Below are positions 3,791-23,165 of a stretch of DNA of 23,208 nt, piece after piece. The notes under the pieces are model-generated. The model saw only the letters and a program-made list of their open reading frames with translations. It was not told where the DNA came from and did no database searches. Both the position numbers and the translations under genes were made by a program. Location of the stretch: positions 1 through 23,208 of the IMG/VR virus record IMGVR_UViG_3300021181_000041. One strand, 5' to 3'. This stretch comes from a virus. Within the stretch, counting starts at the first letter, position 1. Each line of letters begins with the position of its first letter.

Positions 3791-3846
3791 CACTCAATCA
3801 AATCTGTGATCGTCTTTAGGGTCGGTTTCCCAAGGGAAGGTGCGTG

Positions 3847-5046
3847 ATGAGAAGACTATTTGGCCTTGCATGGGTCTTGGTTTCAATGGCATCGATCCTG
3901 GCGCGATGCTGGGGGCAAGAAGCAGTGGATACAAGAGCAGCCTCTCAAGACGCGGTGACCAAGAGAATTGAAAGCCGCCAGGAGGCTTTAAGCGCTCTCC
4001 CTGCTGATAAAAAGCAGGCCCTCACAGGCGACATTCAAAAGGAGAGTCGAGAGCATTTCGGTTTTGATGCCTTTAAAAACGTAAATGACCTAATTGCCGT
4101 TGATCCTACGAAGCTTTCACTTGCACTTAAAGGCAATTTGGATATGACAGTTAACCACGTTGTCGTGCGGAATTTGTTTCCCCTCCTGGTCGAACCCACT
4201 GCGATCGCATCTACGGGAGATCAGGTATACCCCGATCTTCAAGCGGCGCTAAACGCCGAGAATACTAACCAGATACTGCAATTAGCAAATAGGGTTGGGA
4301 GGATCCGATATTGGGTGAAAACAGACCAACCTGAAGCGTCGGTCCCTGACTCAGCCGCCTATCTTGCAGGAACGGGTTTTGTGGTAGGTCCGGGGCTCAT
4401 AGCAACTGCCTGCCACGTGCTAGATTACATTACCGATGACAGCTCGGGTAGCAGCATGAGCTCTACCGTCTGGGTAAAGTTCGATCTGAGCGCCGATCCG
4501 AACACCCATCAAGCGTATGCGATATCAAACGTAGTAGGCAAAGGTTCACTCGAAGGAGAAGATTATGCCGTTCTTTCCGTCTCTGCGGTCAGCGAAGACG
4601 GCGCCTCACACCTACCGACAGCAGTTCCACTTGGAGATGACGCGAAGACGACGTTTGTAGGCGTAATTGGCTATCCGGATATCGATGGAGCCACGAAGGA
4701 GTGCGCACCAGGGGGAACGGGTTGTGACGAGACGGCCCAATGGTTCACCAATTTTGGCCAGAAAAATCCGGGTACGATAAAGATAATCTCACCGGGCAGG
4801 AAGACAGGCGGTTTCAGTCCAAACGGATTTCCAATTCTGACGTATGACGCACCTACTCTTGGTGGGCAATCGGGATCCCCTGTCATTGACCTCCAATCGG
4901 GATTGGTCGTGGGGCTTCATTATTGCTGCACTGGATATCAACCAAGTGGAAACGAGCCGTCTTGTGCAAAGCTACATCCCATTTCGTTGGGAGATGATTC
5001 TGAGAATGAAGGATTGGTTATTAAGGACGTTGTGATCCCTAATTGA
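3847..5046 (+). CDS. Secreted trypsin-like serine protease (cargo gene)
   Basis: 399 residues from the ATG at 3847; GGGAAGG at 3834-3840 lies 6 bases before it. A signal peptide covers about residues 1-24 (LFGLAWVLVSMASILARCWGQ). Residues 25-165 are a helical N-terminal domain of unknown type. Residues 170-390 are a chymotrypsin-fold protease: His190 in LIATACHVLD, Asp239 in GEDYAVL, Ser342 in GGQSGSPV. The triad is complete. Cysteines at 286 and 293 and the CC pair in LHYCCTGY may form disulfides, fitting an extracytoplasmic site. The gene follows the putative outer-membrane protein and lies between the two repressor-controlled promoters. Its substrate is unknown. Host-envelope modification, superinfection exclusion or defence are possible, none shown by sequence. 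Confidence 0.88.
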   Translation: MRRLFGLAWVLVSMASILARCWGQEAVDTRAASQDAVTKRIESRQEALSALPADKKQALTGDIQKESREHFGFDAFKNVNDLIAVDPTKLSLALKGNLDMTVNHVVVRNLFPLLVEPTAIASTGDQVYPDLQAALNAENTNQILQLANRVGRIRYWVKTDQPEASVPDSAAYLAGTGFVVGPGLIATACHVLDYITDDSSGSSMSSTVWVKFDLSADPNTHQAYAISNVVGKGSLEGEDYAVLSVSAVSEDGASHLPTAVPLGDDAKTTFVGVIGYPDIDGATKECAPGGTGCDETAQWFTNFGQKNPGTIKIISPGRKTGGFSPNGFPILTYDAPTLGGQSGSPVIDLQSGLVVGLHYCCTGYQPSGNEPSCAKLHPISLGDDSENEGLVIKDVVIPN

Positions 5047-15638: not shown

Positions 15639-16010
15639 ATGCCGAGAGGAAAGAATCTCAGGCCGGAAGCCGGTGAGAAGACCCGCTTTGGCCAGCCGGG
15701 CGGTCCAGACCCGCGCAAGGCCACGAAGAGTGGTTGCCCCAAGTGGTCAATTCGTCAGTCGGTCAAATATCTGGCCAACAGGACGGTGGCGGAGTTGAAG
15801 GAAATACGGGCGCAGGAACCCACCGTAGCGCAGCTCATTGCGCTTGTTGCGTTGCAGAAAGCGTCAAATGGCGACATGCAGGCGGTCAATTACGCCACTG
15901 AAAATATCGACGGCAAGCTGCCGCAAGAAACCCAACTGACGGGAAAAGACGGTGATGCCTTGCAGGCACCAGTGATCTATCTGCCTGCGAATGGCCGCAG
16001 CACAGATTAG
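15639..16010 (+). CDS. Terminase small subunit-like
   Basis: 123 residues. A basic N-terminus rich in Gly, Pro, Arg and Lys (GKNLRPEAGEKTRFGQPGGPDPRKATKSG) is followed by a helical body (RQSVKYLANRTVAELKEI, PTVAQLIALVALQKA). This is the common plan of phage small terminases that bind the packaging site. It overlaps TerL by 20 bases. A 21-codon frame at 15611-15676 with a good ribosome site (GAAGG) starts before it and could be a leader. Confidence 0.7.
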   Translation: MPRGKNLRPEAGEKTRFGQPGGPDPRKATKSGCPKWSIRQSVKYLANRTVAELKEIRAQEPTVAQLIALVALQKASNGDMQAVNYATENIDGKLPQETQLTGKDGDALQAPVIYLPANGRSTD

Positions 16011-17406
16011 GCCTCAGCTTGGCCCACAAGAAAGATTCCTCGCGACACCTGCGGACATAGCCATATATGGCGGCGCTGCCGGCGGCGGCAAGTCCTACGG
16101 ACTGCTGCTTGAGCCTCTCCGCCACATAGCGAATAAGAAGTTCGGCGCCGTCATCTTCCGTCGCCAGATGACCGACGTGCTGAAAGAAGGCGGCCTCTGG
16201 GACGTATCTGGTGAGTTGTACGGCTCCCTTGGGGCAAAGTCGAATCAGCAGCAGCACAATTACACTTTCGGTTCGGGTGCGCGCATCGGCTTTGGTCACC
16301 TTGAGCACGAAAAGACGAAATATGACTGGCAGGGCGGACAAATAGCCCTCCTTCTTTTCGATGAGCTGACGCACTTTACGAAGACGCAGTTCTTCTACAT
16401 GCTGTCTCGCAACCGCTCTACGAGCGGTGTGAAACCGTATGTGCGTGCGACGACAAACCCTGACGCTGATAGCTGGGTAGCTGAGTTCATCTCATGGTGG
16501 ATTGACCCGGATACTGGACTCCCGATACCGGAGCGGGATGGCGTCCTGCGTTATTTCGTCCGGCGGGGTGAGACGTTCATTTGGGGGGACACGGCGCAAG
16601 AGCTGGTAGATAGCCATCCCGACGTGAAGCTCAACGAGGTGAAGTCGGTTACGTTCATTGCCTCGAATATTCATGACAATAAAATCCTGCTTGAAAAAGA
16701 CCCCGGCTACCTGGGGAATCTCAAAGCGCAGAACCTCGTCGATCGCGAGCGCCTTCTTGGCGGCAATTGGAAAATCCGTCCAAGCGCCGGTTTGTATTTC
16801 AAGCGCAGCTATTTTGAAGTCATCGAAGCAGCGCCTGCCGGTCTGCTAGCAGTGCGCAGCTGGGATCTCGCCGCAACGGAAAAGAAAGAGGGAACCGACC
16901 CTGACTGGACGGTTGGACTTAAGCTCTCACGAGATTCGAAGGGTACGTTCTATGTGGAGCATGTCGAGCGCCTTCAGGGCAGTCCTCGAGCGGTAGAAAC
17001 CGCGATATGCAATATCGCGGCCTCAGACGGCAAGACGGTTCGCATCCGATTACCACAAGATCCTGGGCAGGCTGGCAAATCGCAATCAGCGTACTTAGTG
17101 AGCTTGCTGGCAGGCTATATCGTGACGACGGAGCGCGAGACTGGCGACAAAGTTACGCGGGCCGGAGCGGCATCATCGCAGGCGGAGGTTGGCAATATCA
17201 AGGTTGTCCGCGGGGTATGGAATGAAGTCTTCTTCAGCGAACTGGAGAACTTCCCGCCGACAAAGGGGCATGACGATCAGGTCGATGCACTCTCAGGCGC
17301 GGTGAATACGATTCTCCAGCCCGTGCCCGGCGCAGGTTGGATGGGCTTCATTGAATCACAGGCCGCGCAAGCACAGAAATCCACTGAAAAGACGAATCAA
17401 CCTTAA
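15991..17406 (+). CDS. terL: Terminase large subunit
   Basis: 471 residues. ATPase domain: Walker A GGAAGGGKS (27-35, Lys34), Walker B LLLFDELT (Asp124, Glu125), and the coupling motif ATTNPD. Nuclease domain: Asp292 in SWDLA, Asp357 in PQDPGQ, and GHDDQVDA (Asp428, Asp429, Asp432). This is the packaging motor that cuts concatemers and pumps DNA through the portal. It overlaps the small subunit by 20 bases and lacks a strong ribosome site, suggesting translational coupling. Confidence 0.97.
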   Translation: MAAAQIRPQLGPQERFLATPADIAIYGGAAGGGKSYGLLLEPLRHIANKKFGAVIFRRQMTDVLKEGGLWDVSGELYGSLGAKSNQQQHNYTFGSGARIGFGHLEHEKTKYDWQGGQIALLLFDELTHFTKTQFFYMLSRNRSTSGVKPYVRATTNPDADSWVAEFISWWIDPDTGLPIPERDGVLRYFVRRGETFIWGDTAQELVDSHPDVKLNEVKSVTFIASNIHDNKILLEKDPGYLGNLKAQNLVDRERLLGGNWKIRPSAGLYFKRSYFEVIEAAPAGLLAVRSWDLAATEKKEGTDPDWTVGLKLSRDSKGTFYVEHVERLQGSPRAVETAICNIAASDGKTVRIRLPQDPGQAGKSQSAYLVSLLAGYIVTTERETGDKVTRAGAASSQAEVGNIKVVRGVWNEVFFSELENFPPTKGHDDQVDALSGAVNTILQPVPGAGWMGFIESQAAQAQKSTEKTNQP

Positions 17407-17421
17407 TCACAAGGAGTTTTT

Positions 17422-18126
17422 ATGACCTATACCGTTAACATGCTCGCGCCTGCAGCTAAGGCGGGCTATACGCAGCAAGCAGCCTCCGGGAATACCTATA
17501 CTGCCGATGCTTACGGATTCATCACGGGCATCGCGCTGGCCGACGTTGGTGATCTTTATAAGGGCGGCTGCATCCCGCTTGGCCAGTCGGGTGTCAGGAG
17601 CACGTTCAGCCAGACTGTCGACCCTGGTGTCAGCAATGACAATACGCAGGACTTCGGCGTCGGTTCGGAGTGGTTCAATAGCACAACTGGCCTCCTATGG
17701 CGCTGCCAGTCAGCTGCCACCGGCGCGGCAGTATGGATGCCGCAGGTGTCCTCTGGCGTGCTGATCGGCCGCCTCATCGGTGCTAATTTTAATGTCACCA
17801 CCGACCAGGCCATCAACATGACGGGTTGGAGTGCGCTCAATAAGTTCCGCCTGACCAAAGTGACAGTCAAGAACGCGAGCGTATCGCTTACGACCGCAGC
17901 GGGTGGTATCTATACCGCTGCGTCAAAAGGCGGCACCGCGTATGTGGCATCGAGCCAGGCCTATAGTTCCCTGACCGCTTCTACGCTTGCACTGGACCTT
18001 ACCATTGCGACGACGCCAGGCGTGACGCCGCTTGCTGCAGCCAGCCAGCTCTATCTATCTCTGAGCACAGCACAGGGCGCTGCGGCAACGGCCGACGTGG
18101 AAGTGTACGGCGACGCCTACGTTTAA
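17422..18126 (+). CDS. Head decoration / fibre-like structural protein
   Basis: 234 residues with a strong AAGGAG ribosome site. The repeatable phage motif VGSEWFNSTTGLLWRCQSAATGAAVW (start of a small beta domain found in tail or head fibres) lies at about 79-104. A Ser/Thr/Ala-rich beta-strand region follows (RLTKVTVKNASVSLTTAAGG ... ALDLTIATTPGV). The strong site and its place between terminase and portal suggest an abundant virion protein. I cannot name the family. Confidence 0.65.
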   Translation: MTYTVNMLAPAAKAGYTQQAASGNTYTADAYGFITGIALADVGDLYKGGCIPLGQSGVRSTFSQTVDPGVSNDNTQDFGVGSEWFNSTTGLLWRCQSAATGAAVWMPQVSSGVLIGRLIGANFNVTTDQAINMTGWSALNKFRLTKVTVKNASVSLTTAAGGIYTAASKGGTAYVASSQAYSSLTASTLALDLTIATTPGVTPLAAASQLYLSLSTAQGAAATADVEVYGDAYV

Positions 18127-18147: not shown

Positions 18148-19908
18148 ATGCCGGAGGGTGGAAAGGTCACGCCTATCCCCTCCGGCGTCATCGCGCGAGT
18201 GTCGCAAGCCGTCCGTTATGTGATCAGCGGCGTGGGTCCGGAGACCTGGTTCGGGCCCATGCAGCCGCTCAAGCCCATGGCGCCGCCCGAGGTTAAGGGA
18301 CGTGCCTGGGACTATCCGGTCGGAGCCAATCTTAACTACACTCCGCGTGTTAACGAGGGGGTGTCCTTTGAGGACATGCGAGCCCTCGCGGATAATTGTG
18401 ACATACTGCGTGCCGTCATCGAGACGCGTAAGGACCAGATTGAAGCCCTTGATTATTCCGTTAAGGTGAGGCCAGTTGAGGGGGACAACAAGCGTGTCAC
18501 GGCGACGGCAGAGCAGCAGCAGCGCATCGACAAGATCACTGCGTTCATGCAGAGCCCGGACAAAGAGCATGGCTTCGACCAGTGGATGCGGATGCTGCTT
18601 GATGACATGTTCGTCATCGATGCGGCGAGTGTATACCGCTGGCCTGATCGCAAAGGCGATCTTTACGCGCTCCGTATTATCGATGGGGCAAGGATAAAAC
18701 CGCTTATCAACGATTATGGATTTCGTCCGGCACCGCCTGATCCCGCGTATCAGGAAATCCTCAAGGGCGTTCCTGCGGCGGACTACACTTCAGACGAATT
18801 GCTGTACCTCGTGCGCAACCCGCGCAGTCACAAACTGCACGGGTATAGCCACGTCGAGCAGATCATTATCACGGTTAACACCGCGATACGCCGCGCGCTT
18901 TCCCAGCTGGAATACTATCGGGAGGGAAGTCAGCCGGATGCATTCGTAGGCCTTCCGAAGGACTGGACGCAGGAACAGATAACCACCTTCCAGAAATGGT
19001 GGGACGGGCTGATGGCCGGGAATCTCGGCCAGCGGCGCCACCTGAAGTTCCTCCCCGGCGAGTTCAAGTACCAGGCCACCAAAGAGCCGGTCCTGAAGGA
19101 CGAATACGACGACTACCTGACGCGGGTGATCTGTTTCGTCTTCTCCATTGCGCCCACGGCCCTGATAAAAGCCAATAACCGCGCGACCGCTGACAACCAG
19201 CATGACCAGGCCCGCGAAGAAGGGCTCGCTCCGCTTCAGAAGTTCATACGCAACTTCTGGAACAAGATCATCGTTGAGGATTTCGAGTCCCCGGATTTGA
19301 TGTTCGACTATCTCGACGACCGGGAAATGGACCCGCAGGCAGCTGCCACGATTCGCCAAGGTGATGTTAAGGCCGGAATCATTTCCATTGATGAGGCGCG
19401 CGACGGCATGGGACAGGATGCACTCGGAGGAGCCTTTGCGACTCCCATGGCGCTCACCACTATAGGATACGTGGCCATCAAGTCTCAGGAGGAGCAAGAT
19501 GCCGCCGCTCAAGCGCAACAGCAAGCGGCGTCCGATGCTGCCTCTGCGCGCGCTGGACACAACAACGGTTCCGGTATACAGCAGGATGCACACGATGGGG
19601 GCGATGATGACACCAATGACAGCGGAGCAAGTGGCTCGGGCAAGTCAGGTGCTAAAGGAACATCTGGCAAAGCCGATAGATCAGCGCCTTCGGGAGTATC
19701 GGGAAGGCCTGCCAAAGGCGAGAAACTGGCAGGAGTTCATAAACACGACACCGACTCTGGTGCCAACTGTGATGCCCCTAAGCGTGCCCAGGCCACATGC
19801 GGAGACAGCCGAGAACTGGCGTCAGGTAGCAGGGGTGGCTTAAAAAAAAAGCCCAATCCGTATCTCCTCACGACCGCGCTCAGGCACGAAAGTCACGCAA
19901 GGACATAA
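18148..19908 (+). CDS. Phage portal protein (HK97-like); C-terminus enters a frameshift site
   Basis: 586 residues. The first about 450 have portal features: ILRAVIETRKDQIEALDYSV at the start, the LLDDMFVIDAASVY wing, a stem and crown region (AIRRALSQLEYYREG, RHLKFLPGEFKYQ), and FVFSIAPTALIKANNRATADNQHDQ. The portal forms the dodecameric DNA channel of the capsid. After about residue 450 the sequence becomes Gln/Ala-rich, then Gly/Ser/Lys-rich and disordered. Here a second gene (19499-19843) overlaps in another frame, and third-position GC is low in the portal frame. At residues 565-568 the codons TTA AAA AAA AAG form a slippery run. Zero-frame reading adds only 18 residues more. A -1 slip would fuse the portal to the MuF protein. 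Confidence 0.9.
   Translation: MPEGGKVTPIPSGVIARVSQAVRYVISGVGPETWFGPMQPLKPMAPPEVKGRAWDYPVGANLNYTPRVNEGVSFEDMRALADNCDILRAVIETRKDQIEALDYSVKVRPVEGDNKRVTATAEQQQRIDKITAFMQSPDKEHGFDQWMRMLLDDMFVIDAASVYRWPDRKGDLYALRIIDGARIKPLINDYGFRPAPPDPAYQEILKGVPAADYTSDELLYLVRNPRSHKLHGYSHVEQIIITVNTAIRRALSQLEYYREGSQPDAFVGLPKDWTQEQITTFQKWWDGLMAGNLGQRRHLKFLPGEFKYQATKEPVLKDEYDDYLTRVICFVFSIAPTALIKANNRATADNQHDQAREEGLAPLQKFIRNFWNKIIVEDFESPDLMFDYLDDREMDPQAAATIRQGDVKAGIISIDEARDGMGQDALGGAFATPMALTTIGYVAIKSQEEQDAAAQAQQQAASDAASARAGHNNGSGIQQDAHDGGDDDTNDSGASGSGKSGAKGTSGKADRSAPSGVSGRPAKGEKLAGVHKHDTDSGANCDAPKRAQATCGDSRELASGSRGGLKKKPNPYLLTTALRHESHART
19499..19843 (+). CDS. Small gene nested in the portal 3' end
   Basis: 114 residues in a different frame from the portal, with AGGAGG just upstream (19487-19492). 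The C-terminal part (MTAEQVARASQVLKEHLAKPIDQRLREYREGLPKARNWQEFINTTP ... ETAENWRQVAG) reads as a folded helical protein. Counting by eye, GC is lowest at the second codon position in this frame, as expected for real coding, and not in the portal frame. The TAA at 19841-19843 abuts the A9 run. If one base (T19841) were absent, this frame would continue directly into the MuF protein. It is therefore either an independent nested gene or the split N-terminus of MuF. Confidence 0.6.
   Translation: MPPLKRNSKRRPMLPLRALDTTTVPVYSRMHTMGAMMTPMTAEQVARASQVLKEHLAKPIDQRLREYREGLPKARNWQEFINTTPTLVPTVMPLSVPRPHAETAENWRQVAGVA
19831..19851 (+). other. Probable -1 frameshift signal (portal to MuF)
   Basis: In the portal frame the codons AAA AAA AAG end a run of nine A (19842-19850), giving the heptamer A AAA AAG at 19845-19851, the slippery site of E. 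coli dnaX. AGGGG at 19831-19835 is Shine-Dalgarno-like at 9 bases upstream, the spacing that stimulates dnaX frameshifting. A -1 slip enters the MuF frame, which is open from 19830 to 20624. No clear downstream stem-loop was found. Confidence 0.6.
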
Positions 19909-20066
19909 AGAAGCTCGCCGAGAAGGTTTTAGATAAGGCGGGTAGGGAAGTAGCCAAACAGCTTCATACATCGCTAGGTAAGCTCGCCAAGGGCTCTGAT
20001 GACGATTCTTCGGATAGAGAGGCTGATGGGATAGTCAACAGCCTCGACCTGAGTTCATTCGGCGCA

Positions 20067-20624
20067 TTGTCGGGTGTCGAGTGGATGCTTTCCGATGTCG
20101 CTAGTGACCGGGCGCAGGATGAGCTGCTCAGTTTGGGCATATCGCAAAAGTCGGACTTCTTTGATCACGCGAATCAGCGTGCTGCCTCTTATGCAGAGGA
20201 ACGAGCCGCGGATCTGGTGACGCTGATTGATGATTCCACCCGGAACATGCTGCGGCAAAAGATTGCCAGCGGCCTATCCTCAGGTGCGATGCGCGAAGAC
20301 ATCATCGACGACATCATGGACTCTGAAATCTTCTCCGAGGCGCGGGCCACGCTGATTGCCGATACGGAAGTGGCAATGGCAAACGGGCAGGGCGCATTAG
20401 CTGGATACAAGGAAGCCAAAGCTGCAGGCGTGAGGCTGAAGAAGATTTGGGTTTGCGATTCTGATCCCTGTCCTATCTGCGAAGAAAATCAAGACGCAGG
20501 CGAGATCGAAGTTGAGGATGATTTTCCAAGTGGGGATGATGCAGAGGTGGCACATCCGGGTTGCTTATGTCATACCGAATCCGTAGTTGAGGACGAAGAC
20601 AAAGACGGAGAGGATGATGAATAA
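20067..20624 (+). CDS. MuF-like minor head protein (true N-terminus lies upstream)
   Basis: 185 residues if the TTG at 20067 is used, but the frame is clearly coding back to about 19842 (AEKVLDKAGREVAKQLHTSLGKLAKG and SDREADGIVNSLDLSSFGAL) with no ATG, GTG or TTG in between. The C-terminus holds the MuF signature: an ARATLIADTEVAMANGQGAL helix, then VCDSDPCPICEENQDAGEIEVEDDFPSGDDAEVAHPGCLC. MuF proteins follow the portal and aid head assembly or DNA ejection. The missing start and the adjacent A9 run suggest that it is made by frameshifting from the portal, or that the gene is split by a frameshift mutation. Confidence 0.85.
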   Translation: MSGVEWMLSDVASDRAQDELLSLGISQKSDFFDHANQRAASYAEERAADLVTLIDDSTRNMLRQKIASGLSSGAMREDIIDDIMDSEIFSEARATLIADTEVAMANGQGALAGYKEAKAAGVRLKKIWVCDSDPCPICEENQDAGEIEVEDDFPSGDDAEVAHPGCLCHTESVVEDEDKDGEDDE

Positions 20625-20873: not shown

Positions 20874-23165
20874 ATGTCGCGGCTGAATGTCTTCGTCCCG
20901 ATCACCAAGATCGACGAAGAGAAGCGCATCGTGTATAGCGTCCTTACTGAGGAATGCCCGGACAAGTCGGGTGAGATTTTTGATTATGCGAGCGGCAAGC
21001 CCGCAGTGCAGGCGTGGTCGGATGAAATTAAGGCCGCATCAGGCGGAAAGTCACTCGGCAACCTTCGCGCGATGCATGACAACATCGCTGCTGGCAAGTT
21101 CACAGACATTGTTTTCGATGATGCCCACCGGCGCATCGAGGGCGCAGCCAAGATCATCGATGACGATGAGTGGCAGAAAGTCAAAGAGGGCGTTTATACC
21201 GGCCTGTCCATCGGCGGCTCGTACACCAAGCGCTGGCAAGATAAGGATGACCCTAGTAAGTGGCGCTTCACTCCGAAGCTGACAGAAGTATCCCTCGTCG
21301 ATAACCCCTGCGTTCCCACGGCGACCTTTGAGTACATCAAGGCCGACGGCACGCGTGAGATGCGCAAATTCACCCCCCTACACAAAGAGGATTCTATGGA
21401 CCCCAAGGCACTCGCTGCCGCGAAAGAGGCGCTTGTAAAGGGCATTGCGACAGACGAGCAGAAGGCCCTTATCAAATTCGAAGCCGATGCGCTTCTGAAA
21501 GCAGCACAGGATGCGGACGCAGCTGGCTCCGCTACCGAGGAGCAGAAGGCGCTCATCAAAGCAGCAGCCGCTGCCACGGTAAAGGACGGCAAGCCGGTGA
21601 AGCCCAGCTCCGCTCCGGTCCAGAAGTGGCTCGCCACGGACGGAACTCCGTTCGACAGCAAGCGTGAGGCTGAGATTCATAACCTTCATCTCGAAAAGCA
21701 GGCGCAACTCGCGCCTGGCCTTGACGCCATGAACGCTCTCTTAAAAGGTGCGAAGAAGCCCGCTGAAGAAGAGGACGACGAGGATAAGGACGGCGACGAC
21801 GAGGATACGAAGAAAGCTAAGAAAGCGCGTCGTGAGGAGAAAGCCGCCAAGTCCAAAGAGAAGGCCGATAAAGACGATGCGGAGATGGCGGCTAAGGCCA
21901 AAGAGAAAAAGGAGAAGGAAGACGCTGAGAAGACTGCCGCCGCCGCCCTCCAGAAGAAGGATTACTCCGACAAAGAGCGCAAGGAGATGGCGGACAAAGG
22001 CGAGGCCATGCCCGGCGGTGAATTTCCAATCAAGACAAAGAAAGACGTTGAGGATGCTGTCGATGATTGGGGCCGTGCAGGTTCCAAGCCTGACGTAAAG
22101 GCACATATCATCTCGCGCGCCAAAGCCATTGGTGCGGAAGATGCATTACCTGATGGCTGGGTCGGCAAGAAGAAAGAGAAAAAGGAAAAAGCTGTTCCCA
22201 AGGGCAAACTTGCAAAGGGCTTGCATCAGGTCGGCTGGCTGGCGCATATGCTCGATGAGCTGACGCGCTTTCAGGACAGCGTTGAAATCGAACAATATTT
22301 CGAGGATGACAAGGACAGCGAGCTTCCGGCAAAGCTTAAATCCATAGTCTCTGAATTCTGTGAGCTGCTCATCACGCTGGTAGAAGAGGAAACCAGCGAA
22401 CTCTCAGAGGGCGAAGATACGGATGTCGAAGTCTTAGAAATGGCCGCCGGTCTGCCCAAGGGTCATCCGGAAGCAATCGCCAAGTTCGCCCGCGTCAAAG
22501 CCGGACCTCTTGCAAAGTCTGACAGCAAGAAAGAGTCAGAGACAGCTGCACGGCTCATCAAATTTGCAGAGACGATGGAGAAAGCGGGTGCTCGCCATAG
22601 CAAAGCCGACGCTGATCGCGTTCAGGCGCTCCACGACCACGCCGCCGATGTCCATAAGTGCATGGGCGACATGGTCGAGAAATGCGCGGGAATGCTCAAG
22701 GCTGCGGGTGAAGCCAAGAACACGGCCATTGATCTTGGTGCCAGGGGTGACAAGGTCGATGATGAAGACGACATGGAGCCCGCGAGCAAGGCCGCGGTCA
22801 AAATGAGCAAGCTCTACGAACAGCTCAATGCCAAAACAGATGAAGTGCTTGCCGTATCTAAGGTCGCGGCGGCCTCAAACGAAACACTGCTTAAGGCCAT
22901 TCCCCTGATCGAGAACCTGCAGAAGCAGGTGGGAACCCTCGAGCAGGAGAAATCGGAGCTCGCCAAGAGAATGGAACACCTGGAAAAGCAGCCGGCTGCT
23001 CCCAAGGGCCATGTGAGGGCGATTTCCAAAGCTCAGGACACGGGCGCCACCGGTGAAACCGATGCTGAGTTTAAGACGAGGCTGGCAAAGATGCCCCCGG
23101 GAGAGAGGTCACGCGAGCTGATGAAGCTTGCGATGTCCAATCCCATGGATATGCCAAGCCTCTAG
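20874..23165 (+). CDS. XkdF-like capsid maturation protease fused to a long scaffold
   Basis: 763 residues, far longer than a protease alone. Residues 1-165 are an XkdF/HK97-type prohead protease: His68 in RAMHDN and Ser112 in YTGLSIGGSY, followed by TEVSLVDNPC. Residues about 170-360 are Ala/Lys/Glu-rich with a very charged stretch (EEEDDEDKDGDDEDTKKAKKARREEK). Residues about 361-430 (YSDKERKEMADKGEAMPGGE ... HIISRAKAIGAEDALPDGW) match the small DUF6582-like domain also found in other phage proteases. A helical part and a coiled coil (about 640-710) follow. It probably cleaves itself and the capsid protein after acting as scaffold. The major capsid gene is expected just beyond the window. 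The ribosome site is weak. Confidence 0.9.
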   Translation: MSRLNVFVPITKIDEEKRIVYSVLTEECPDKSGEIFDYASGKPAVQAWSDEIKAASGGKSLGNLRAMHDNIAAGKFTDIVFDDAHRRIEGAAKIIDDDEWQKVKEGVYTGLSIGGSYTKRWQDKDDPSKWRFTPKLTEVSLVDNPCVPTATFEYIKADGTREMRKFTPLHKEDSMDPKALAAAKEALVKGIATDEQKALIKFEADALLKAAQDADAAGSATEEQKALIKAAAAATVKDGKPVKPSSAPVQKWLATDGTPFDSKREAEIHNLHLEKQAQLAPGLDAMNALLKGAKKPAEEEDDEDKDGDDEDTKKAKKARREEKAAKSKEKADKDDAEMAAKAKEKKEKEDAEKTAAAALQKKDYSDKERKEMADKGEAMPGGEFPIKTKKDVEDAVDDWGRAGSKPDVKAHIISRAKAIGAEDALPDGWVGKKKEKKEKAVPKGKLAKGLHQVGWLAHMLDELTRFQDSVEIEQYFEDDKDSELPAKLKSIVSEFCELLITLVEEETSELSEGEDTDVEVLEMAAGLPKGHPEAIAKFARVKAGPLAKSDSKKESETAARLIKFAETMEKAGARHSKADADRVQALHDHAADVHKCMGDMVEKCAGMLKAAGEAKNTAIDLGARGDKVDDEDDMEPASKAAVKMSKLYEQLNAKTDEVLAVSKVAAASNETLLKAIPLIENLQKQVGTLEQEKSELAKRMEHLEKQPAAPKGHVRAISKAQDTGATGETDAEFKTRLAKMPPGERSRELMKLAMSNPMDMPSL

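Follow-up and report, generated by a model that had tools for sequence, protein, structure and literature searches.

The portal gene of a virus (IMG/VR record IMGVR_UViG_3300021181_000041) passes through nine consecutive adenines (A9), and a MuF minor capsid domain that lacks a start codon continues from this run in the -1 frame. Slippage at the run, whether by the RNA polymerase or by the ribosome, very probably yields a portal-MuF fusion protein. We lean toward slippage that is mainly transcriptional and carried out by the RNA polymerase, of the type found in Thermus dnaX and TssM. Our confidence is evenly balanced on the widest reading, in which A9-A10 runs at the portal-MuF junction are a recurrent RNA-polymerase slippage device. 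Such a device, seen across several bacterial phyla in both phages and prophages, would have been gained or lost repeatedly, would be kept in either frame state, and would set the MuF number per capsid through a mixed portal ring of two subunit lengths.

Portals are depicted as rings of twelve identical subunits. To our knowledge, the mechanism by which MuF sits on portals at few copies per capsid is not settled. Poly-A slippage that gives two protein lengths is known from Thermus dnaX, Shigella spa13, and TssM, and the known phage cases of programmed slippage involve tail genes and major capsid proteins. Portal-MuF fusions are already known (PMC7302621). No published report of slippage at the portal-MuF junction was found in the main texts of the open-access literature, and portals are not mentioned in the main text of the GeneTack study (PMC3711429). 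What appears to be new is the joining of poly-A slippage to portal-MuF, each of which was known separately.

Organization of the portal-MuF locus

The window is the whole stretch of DNA that was analysed, positions 1 to 23,208 of the record (23,208 bases). The features that bear on the portal-MuF junction are the following.

15991-17406: terminase (PF03237 and PF17289)
17422-18126: uncharacterised open reading frame between the terminase and the portal frame
18148..19908, + strand: portal, zero-frame product of 586 aa (PF04860, E=5.9e-14; phrog_2662)
19499..19843, + strand: nested third-frame open reading frame of 114 aa, behind AGGAGGAG; probably no gene
19830..20624, + strand: MuF open frame, -1 relative to the portal; SPP1 gp7-like minor capsid domain (PF04233)
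19831..19835, + strand: AGGGG, Shine-Dalgarno-like, private to the window and outside the conserved device
19842..19850, + strand: A9, the putative slippage run, TTA AAA AAA AAG in the portal frame
19845..19851, + strand: A_AAA_AAG heptamer in portal phase, a possible ribosomal -1 site within the longer run
19852..19908, + strand: dual-coded stretch from the slip site to the portal stop, with both frames open in all near relatives
20874-23165: large open reading frame 3' of MuF with weak matches to prohead proteases

A preliminary description of this DNA had placed the portal frame, the A9 run, the heptamer, AGGGG, the MuF frame, and the nested frame, and all of these coordinates were correct on re-check. 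The zero-frame product is composed of a portal core, a C-terminal low-complexity linker, and a tail of ~22 residues past the A run. The MuF frame, when entered at the A run, encodes 260 aa counted from KKK. It is open from 19830 and has no ATG, GTG, or TTG before the TTG at 20067.

The window MuF scores above the gathering cut-off of PF04233 (E=3.6e-7, 31.3 bits, cut-off 29.6) and below that of TIGR01641, phageSPP1_gp7 (E=1.3e-5, 25.5 bits, cut-off 39.65), which a relative with split frames, L106, matches with 48.7 bits. In the phrog_2662 profile, which is annotated as "portal" and is 717 positions long, the window portal corresponds to 32-455 and the window MuF to 535-712. Because the first two thirds of the profile match the portal and the last third matches MuF, fusion is the norm in this family. 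Isolated phages with a single-frame portal-MuF fusion include the Brevundimonas phages Polewnik and Strzyga, the Thermoanaerobacterium phage THSA-485A, and the Arthrobacter phage Sonali.

The A9 run is the only homopolymer of at least 8 bases in the whole 23-kb window. Since, in addition, the run, its phase, and the -1 geometry recur in relatives, the A9 junction is more than chance.

Elsewhere in the window, the product of positions 3844-5046 (400 aa) contains a trypsin-like peptidase domain (PF13365, E=4e-16) and is an unusual phage cargo. This frame lies near a LexA/CI-like repressor-type open reading frame on the opposite strand.

Conservation of the split in near relatives

The near clade is composed of L002, L007 (to which L008 is near-identical), L009, L010, L014, and L015, and has seven distinct members with the window included. 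The portals are 56-84% identical and the MuF domains 72-76%. In all seven members the portal frame reads NTA AAA AAA AAG and then reaches a stop 12-26 codons past the run, and the -1 frame encodes MuF but offers it no start codon. Throughout the clade (n=7 distinct), the run has exactly nine adenines, with T on its 5' side and GC on its 3' side. The portal-MuF fusion by a -1 change at the A run that the preliminary description had put forward is supported by this alignment of homologues: in the six distinct near relatives neither the run nor the frame relation has changed and MuF likewise lacks a start, and fused relatives encode the same protein in one frame.

Both frames carry the mark of protein-coding sequence. 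Differences at first, second, and third codon positions number 2030/1597/5018 over the whole portal, a third-position excess in the portal frame, and 1119/884/2678 in the MuF frame after the run, again a third-position excess. The excess is weaker directly 3' of the run, at 19852..19908 where both frames are read, than deeper in MuF. The switch of this excess from the portal frame to the MuF frame at the run indicates that both frames are translated and that the change occurs at the run. No frame lesion other than the A-run split was found in either the portal or the MuF frame.

MuF was not detected in some close portal homologues, namely L003-L006 and many loci from the portal-based scans. 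In L003 and L005, a prohead protease follows the portal.

The nested frame at 19499-19843 had been described as a gene and is probably not one. No homologue was found in near relatives, viral contigs, or phages at E<=1, and no Pfam family matched above cut-off. Most relatives lack its ATG, and in L010 the ATG leads to 10 codons only. Between 19590 and 19840, position-wise GC favours coding in this frame but codon likelihood does not. The frame overlaps the portal linker, which is ~50-67 residues longer in the window than in near relatives.

A9/A10 runs in portal-MuF loci

Portal-based scans and an independent MuF-based scan yielded 124 loci with both domains, and 105 non-redundant loci were left once MuF proteins at least 85% identical were removed. 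The two domains are fused in one frame in 72 of these and split (-1) at an A run in 18, and most of the remaining loci encode MuF as an independent gene that has a start codon. A scan of viral contigs for the DNA pattern re-found the near relatives among 115 matching stretches, a minority of which were inspected. Class- and order-level genome searches returned mostly other portal types and few usable loci, and a search with a narrow MuF alignment found no MuF relatives in genome contigs.

Runs of at least nine adenines occur in 32 of the 105 loci, each at the portal/MuF junction, and are divided between 18 split (-1) and 14 fused loci. Cultured lysogens with such a run include Limnobacter litoralis (L112) and Trinickia mobilis (L126). 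The lengths of the junction A runs are bimodal over the 105 loci (length 5, 24 loci; 6, 16; 7, 6; 8, 1; 9, 20; 10, 12). The longest A runs elsewhere in the same portal/MuF genes, 248 kb in all, are of 8, and on the same strand the remaining 681 kb of the loci contain one T run of at least nine bases and no A run that long. When synonymous codons were shuffled within genes, 8.1 such runs were expected (sd 2.4, maximum 17 in 500 shuffles) and 32 were observed; for the first 66 genes, the figures were 1.1 expected and 20 observed.

Eight fused run-bearing genes were inspected singly, and in each both alternative frames (-1 and +1) reach a stop within 3-25 codons of the run, an arrangement like that of Thermus dnaX (PMC5009743) and Yersinia TssM3 (PMC4256274). 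One of these belongs to THSA-485A, which has an A9 within its fused gene; it was missed by the MuF profile and is not among the 105. The presence of A9/A10 in both split and fused genes means that slippage would give portal and portal-MuF in either arrangement. At the same time, 58 of the 105 loci are fused without an A9/A10 run, so not every phage needs the mixed product.

On a quickly built portal tree, in which many forks are unresolved and some branches are long, the split state needs ~11 changes, at least 4 of them on well-supported branches. These ~11 changes indicate that the split state was gained or lost several times. As far as can be read from the sequences, MuF is also gained or lost as a unit within the portal lineage of the window.

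Several single loci depart from this pattern. In L099 (6342-7142), which has no recognisable MuF, an A9 in the portal C-terminus precedes 266 codons whose only match, to DUF4258, is below threshold, and L169 (6273-6527), also without a recognisable MuF, has an A10 in the portal C-terminus. From these two portals, the device may attach other C-terminal domains. L116 (6404-6662) is a split-frame prophage with A10 in which a TGA interrupts the MuF frame ~92 codons past the run; this TGA is decay, an error, or a further recoding site. In L049 (4779-4812), portal and MuF are split (-1) with no A run and no MuF start, and an in-phase C_CCT_TTC in the overlap is possibly an independent ribosomal -1 site.

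Proposed mechanism of slippage

In the proposed mechanism, the A9 at 19842-19850 is a programmed slippage site in the portal gene. We infer that slippage occurs at a level at which most of the product would be the 586-aa portal, stopping at 19908. In a fraction of the mRNA, the RNA polymerase would re-align on the A9/T9 hybrid and one A would be gained; less often, the ribosome would shift -1 at A_AAA_AAG. The shifted fraction would read the MuF frame and give an 825-aa portal-MuF protein (565 portal codons and 260 from the MuF frame). The calculated product of ribosomal or transcriptional slippage is this same 825-aa protein. A few fusion subunits mixed into the portal ring would then fix the number and place of the gp7-like MuF domains in the capsid.

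The main alternative, which is possible but clearly less probable than transcriptional slippage, is a dnaX-type ribosomal -1 frameshift at A_AAA_AAG alone, in which tandem tRNA-Lys slippage makes the same fusion. The preliminary description had proposed slippage of this type. The in-phase A_AAA_AAG on which that proposal was built is present, and over the survey 21 of the 32 A9/A10 loci, the window included, have an in-phase heptamer with AAG or AAC as its last three bases, and the others have A_AAA_AAA. Runs in phases 1 and 2 mostly end in AAG, which keeps A_AAA_AAG and is a counterpoint to the transcriptional form. The ribosomal mechanism itself is doubtful for two reasons: the run length is conserved across phases, and no stimulatory structure is conserved.

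The runs are found in all three codon phases (NTA AAA AAA AAG; GAA AAA AAA AAG; AAA AAA AAA GCC), but their length is always 9 or 10 over the 32 loci. Most runs are followed by G, those of L104 and L354 by C, and that of L384 by T. In phase 0 (AAA AAA AAA G), the run contains no AAG heptamer. The runs are also longer than the heptamer, and the additional adenines are kept at synonymous sites. In 15/15 split loci of phase 1 or 2, A occupies the synonymously free position 5' of the run (naive product 10^-15.8, inflated by relatedness), and the TTA before the run is apparently the only A-ending Leu codon in the window portal frame. Finally, the run is retained in fourteen fused genes, which also speaks against a ribosomal shift alone. 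A homopolymer-length rule explains the constant length over phases, judging from these runs, and a heptamer rule does not.

Stimulators of ribosomal frameshifting were not shared among the loci. The AGGGG that lies 9 nt upstream in the window, and that had been described as a Shine-Dalgarno-like stimulator, would fit ribosomal shifting but is absent at that place in the six distinct relatives. Over the 32 loci, weak matches to an upstream Shine-Dalgarno-like element number 15 against 11.5 expected, with AGGGG in the window only. Downstream folding in the window does not surpass that of shuffled sequence (z = +1.17) and is mixed in the near clade; over 18 split loci the mean z is -0.02, and no stimulator structure is shared among these pseudoknot-free folds. 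Yields reported for E. coli are in line with transcriptional slippage: heptamers without stimulators reach at most ~10x a 0.055% background (PMC4066793), and a 9-A cassette gives about 40% frame change (PMC3711429).

The split loci at A9/A10 are exclusively -1 (18, and none +1), and in the GeneTack work -1 splits without +1 splits were taken as a sign of ribosomal shifting (PMC3711429). Insertion-biased polymerase slippage, as in Thermus dnaX (PMC5009743), also yields -1 splits. RNA-polymerase slippage is favoured because the length is kept despite the varying phase and 3' base, the run is longer than the dnaX heptamer, and no stimulator is conserved.

Other explanations for the A run

An improbable explanation is contingency at the DNA level, in which slipped-strand mispairing toggles genomes between fused and split with no programmed slippage in expression. 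Fused and split loci do share the same kind of run, and 6 frame-state changes are placed among the A9/A10 loci on the portal tree, which is a quick one with many open forks. However, all distinct near relatives are split with exactly A9 and keep an open zero-frame tail past the run. Under neutral phase variation the lengths would also be scattered and +1 splits would arise, whereas only 9 or 10 and zero +1 were seen.

Still less probable is internal initiation 3' of the run, which would make MuF a protein by itself and the run incidental. The TTG at 20067 opens a 185-aa frame that spans PF04233, and in a few loci (for example L120, L135, L413, and L426) MuF is an independent gene that has a start codon. 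Conserved MuF residues are nevertheless found upstream of this TTG, the same N-terminal part is present in fused homologues, no Shine-Dalgarno sequence was seen before TTG 20067, and the split A9/A10 loci have no early starts in the MuF frame.

The chance is negligible that the window is a pseudogene or that, as also suggested in the preliminary description, a T inserted at 19841 has broken a MuF gene with the nested frame as its N-terminus: the start of that frame looks good and parts of it are protein-like, but the same T, A9, -1 split, and missing start occur in six distinct relatives from different contigs and samples, none of which has the nested frame, and neither frame is otherwise damaged, which excludes sequencing error and the extra T. 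On the sequence evidence, the A-run split is genuine, neither a lesion nor a sequencing error.

Implications for MuF copy number

If it is real, the conserved slippage site would provide a simple way of counting MuF, in which a fixed fraction of portal subunits carries the domain. It would also place a programmed-slippage gene within the phage head module. SPP1 gp7 binds the portal and is present at 1-2 copies per capsid (PMC5576092). By analogy, a mixed ring with few fusion subunits would reproduce this copy count without a separate gene. The 58 fused loci that have no run weaken the case for this counting role: unless the fusion is cleaved, MuF should be present on all of their portal subunits. 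There is also a consequence for annotation: because the MuF half has no start codon, gene callers truncate MuF or label it as a pseudogene.

Comparison with known systems

Portal-MuF single-gene fusions (phrog_2662, the Arthrobacter phage Sonali, and Microbacterium clusters EA/EB) have the same domain order as the window, and the phrog_2662 fusions belong to the same family. Unlike the window, they are one unbroken frame, usually without an A9/A10 run. SPP1 gp7 (PF04233, TIGR01641) is the same domain adjoining the portal, but it is encoded by a separate gene, whereas the window MuF would be a covalent extension of some of the portal subunits.

Among phage assembly genes, lambda gpG/gpGT and the HK97-type tail chaperones also make two products by a frame change. 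These are different genes whose shift is ribosomal and dependent on stimulators, whereas the site described here is in the head/portal module and is homopolymer-based. E. coli dnaX shares A_AAA_AAG in the right phase, and its upstream element has a counterpart, AGGGG, in the window only. The portal-MuF loci differ from it in having no conserved Shine-Dalgarno element or hairpin, in keeping a longer run, and in leading to a long C-terminal domain rather than to an early stop.

Poly-A slippage is found in tssM1 of Citrobacter rodentium and tssM3 of Yersinia pseudotuberculosis (PMC4256274), where the long form is made by slippage in one gene and the short form in its relative, so that both frame states exist, as for portal-MuF. 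TssM is a type VI secretion membrane protein, with A11 in tssM1, while portal-MuF is a virion protein of many phages with A9/A10. In Thermus thermophilus dnaX, transcriptional slippage on A9 gives two products (PMC5009743). A nine-A run yields a short and a long product from one gene, as proposed for portal-MuF, and the single frame with nearby stops in the other frames is like the fused portal-MuF loci. The window differs from Thermus dnaX in being a phage portal with split frames, where slippage, as predicted here from sequence, would lead to the longer product.
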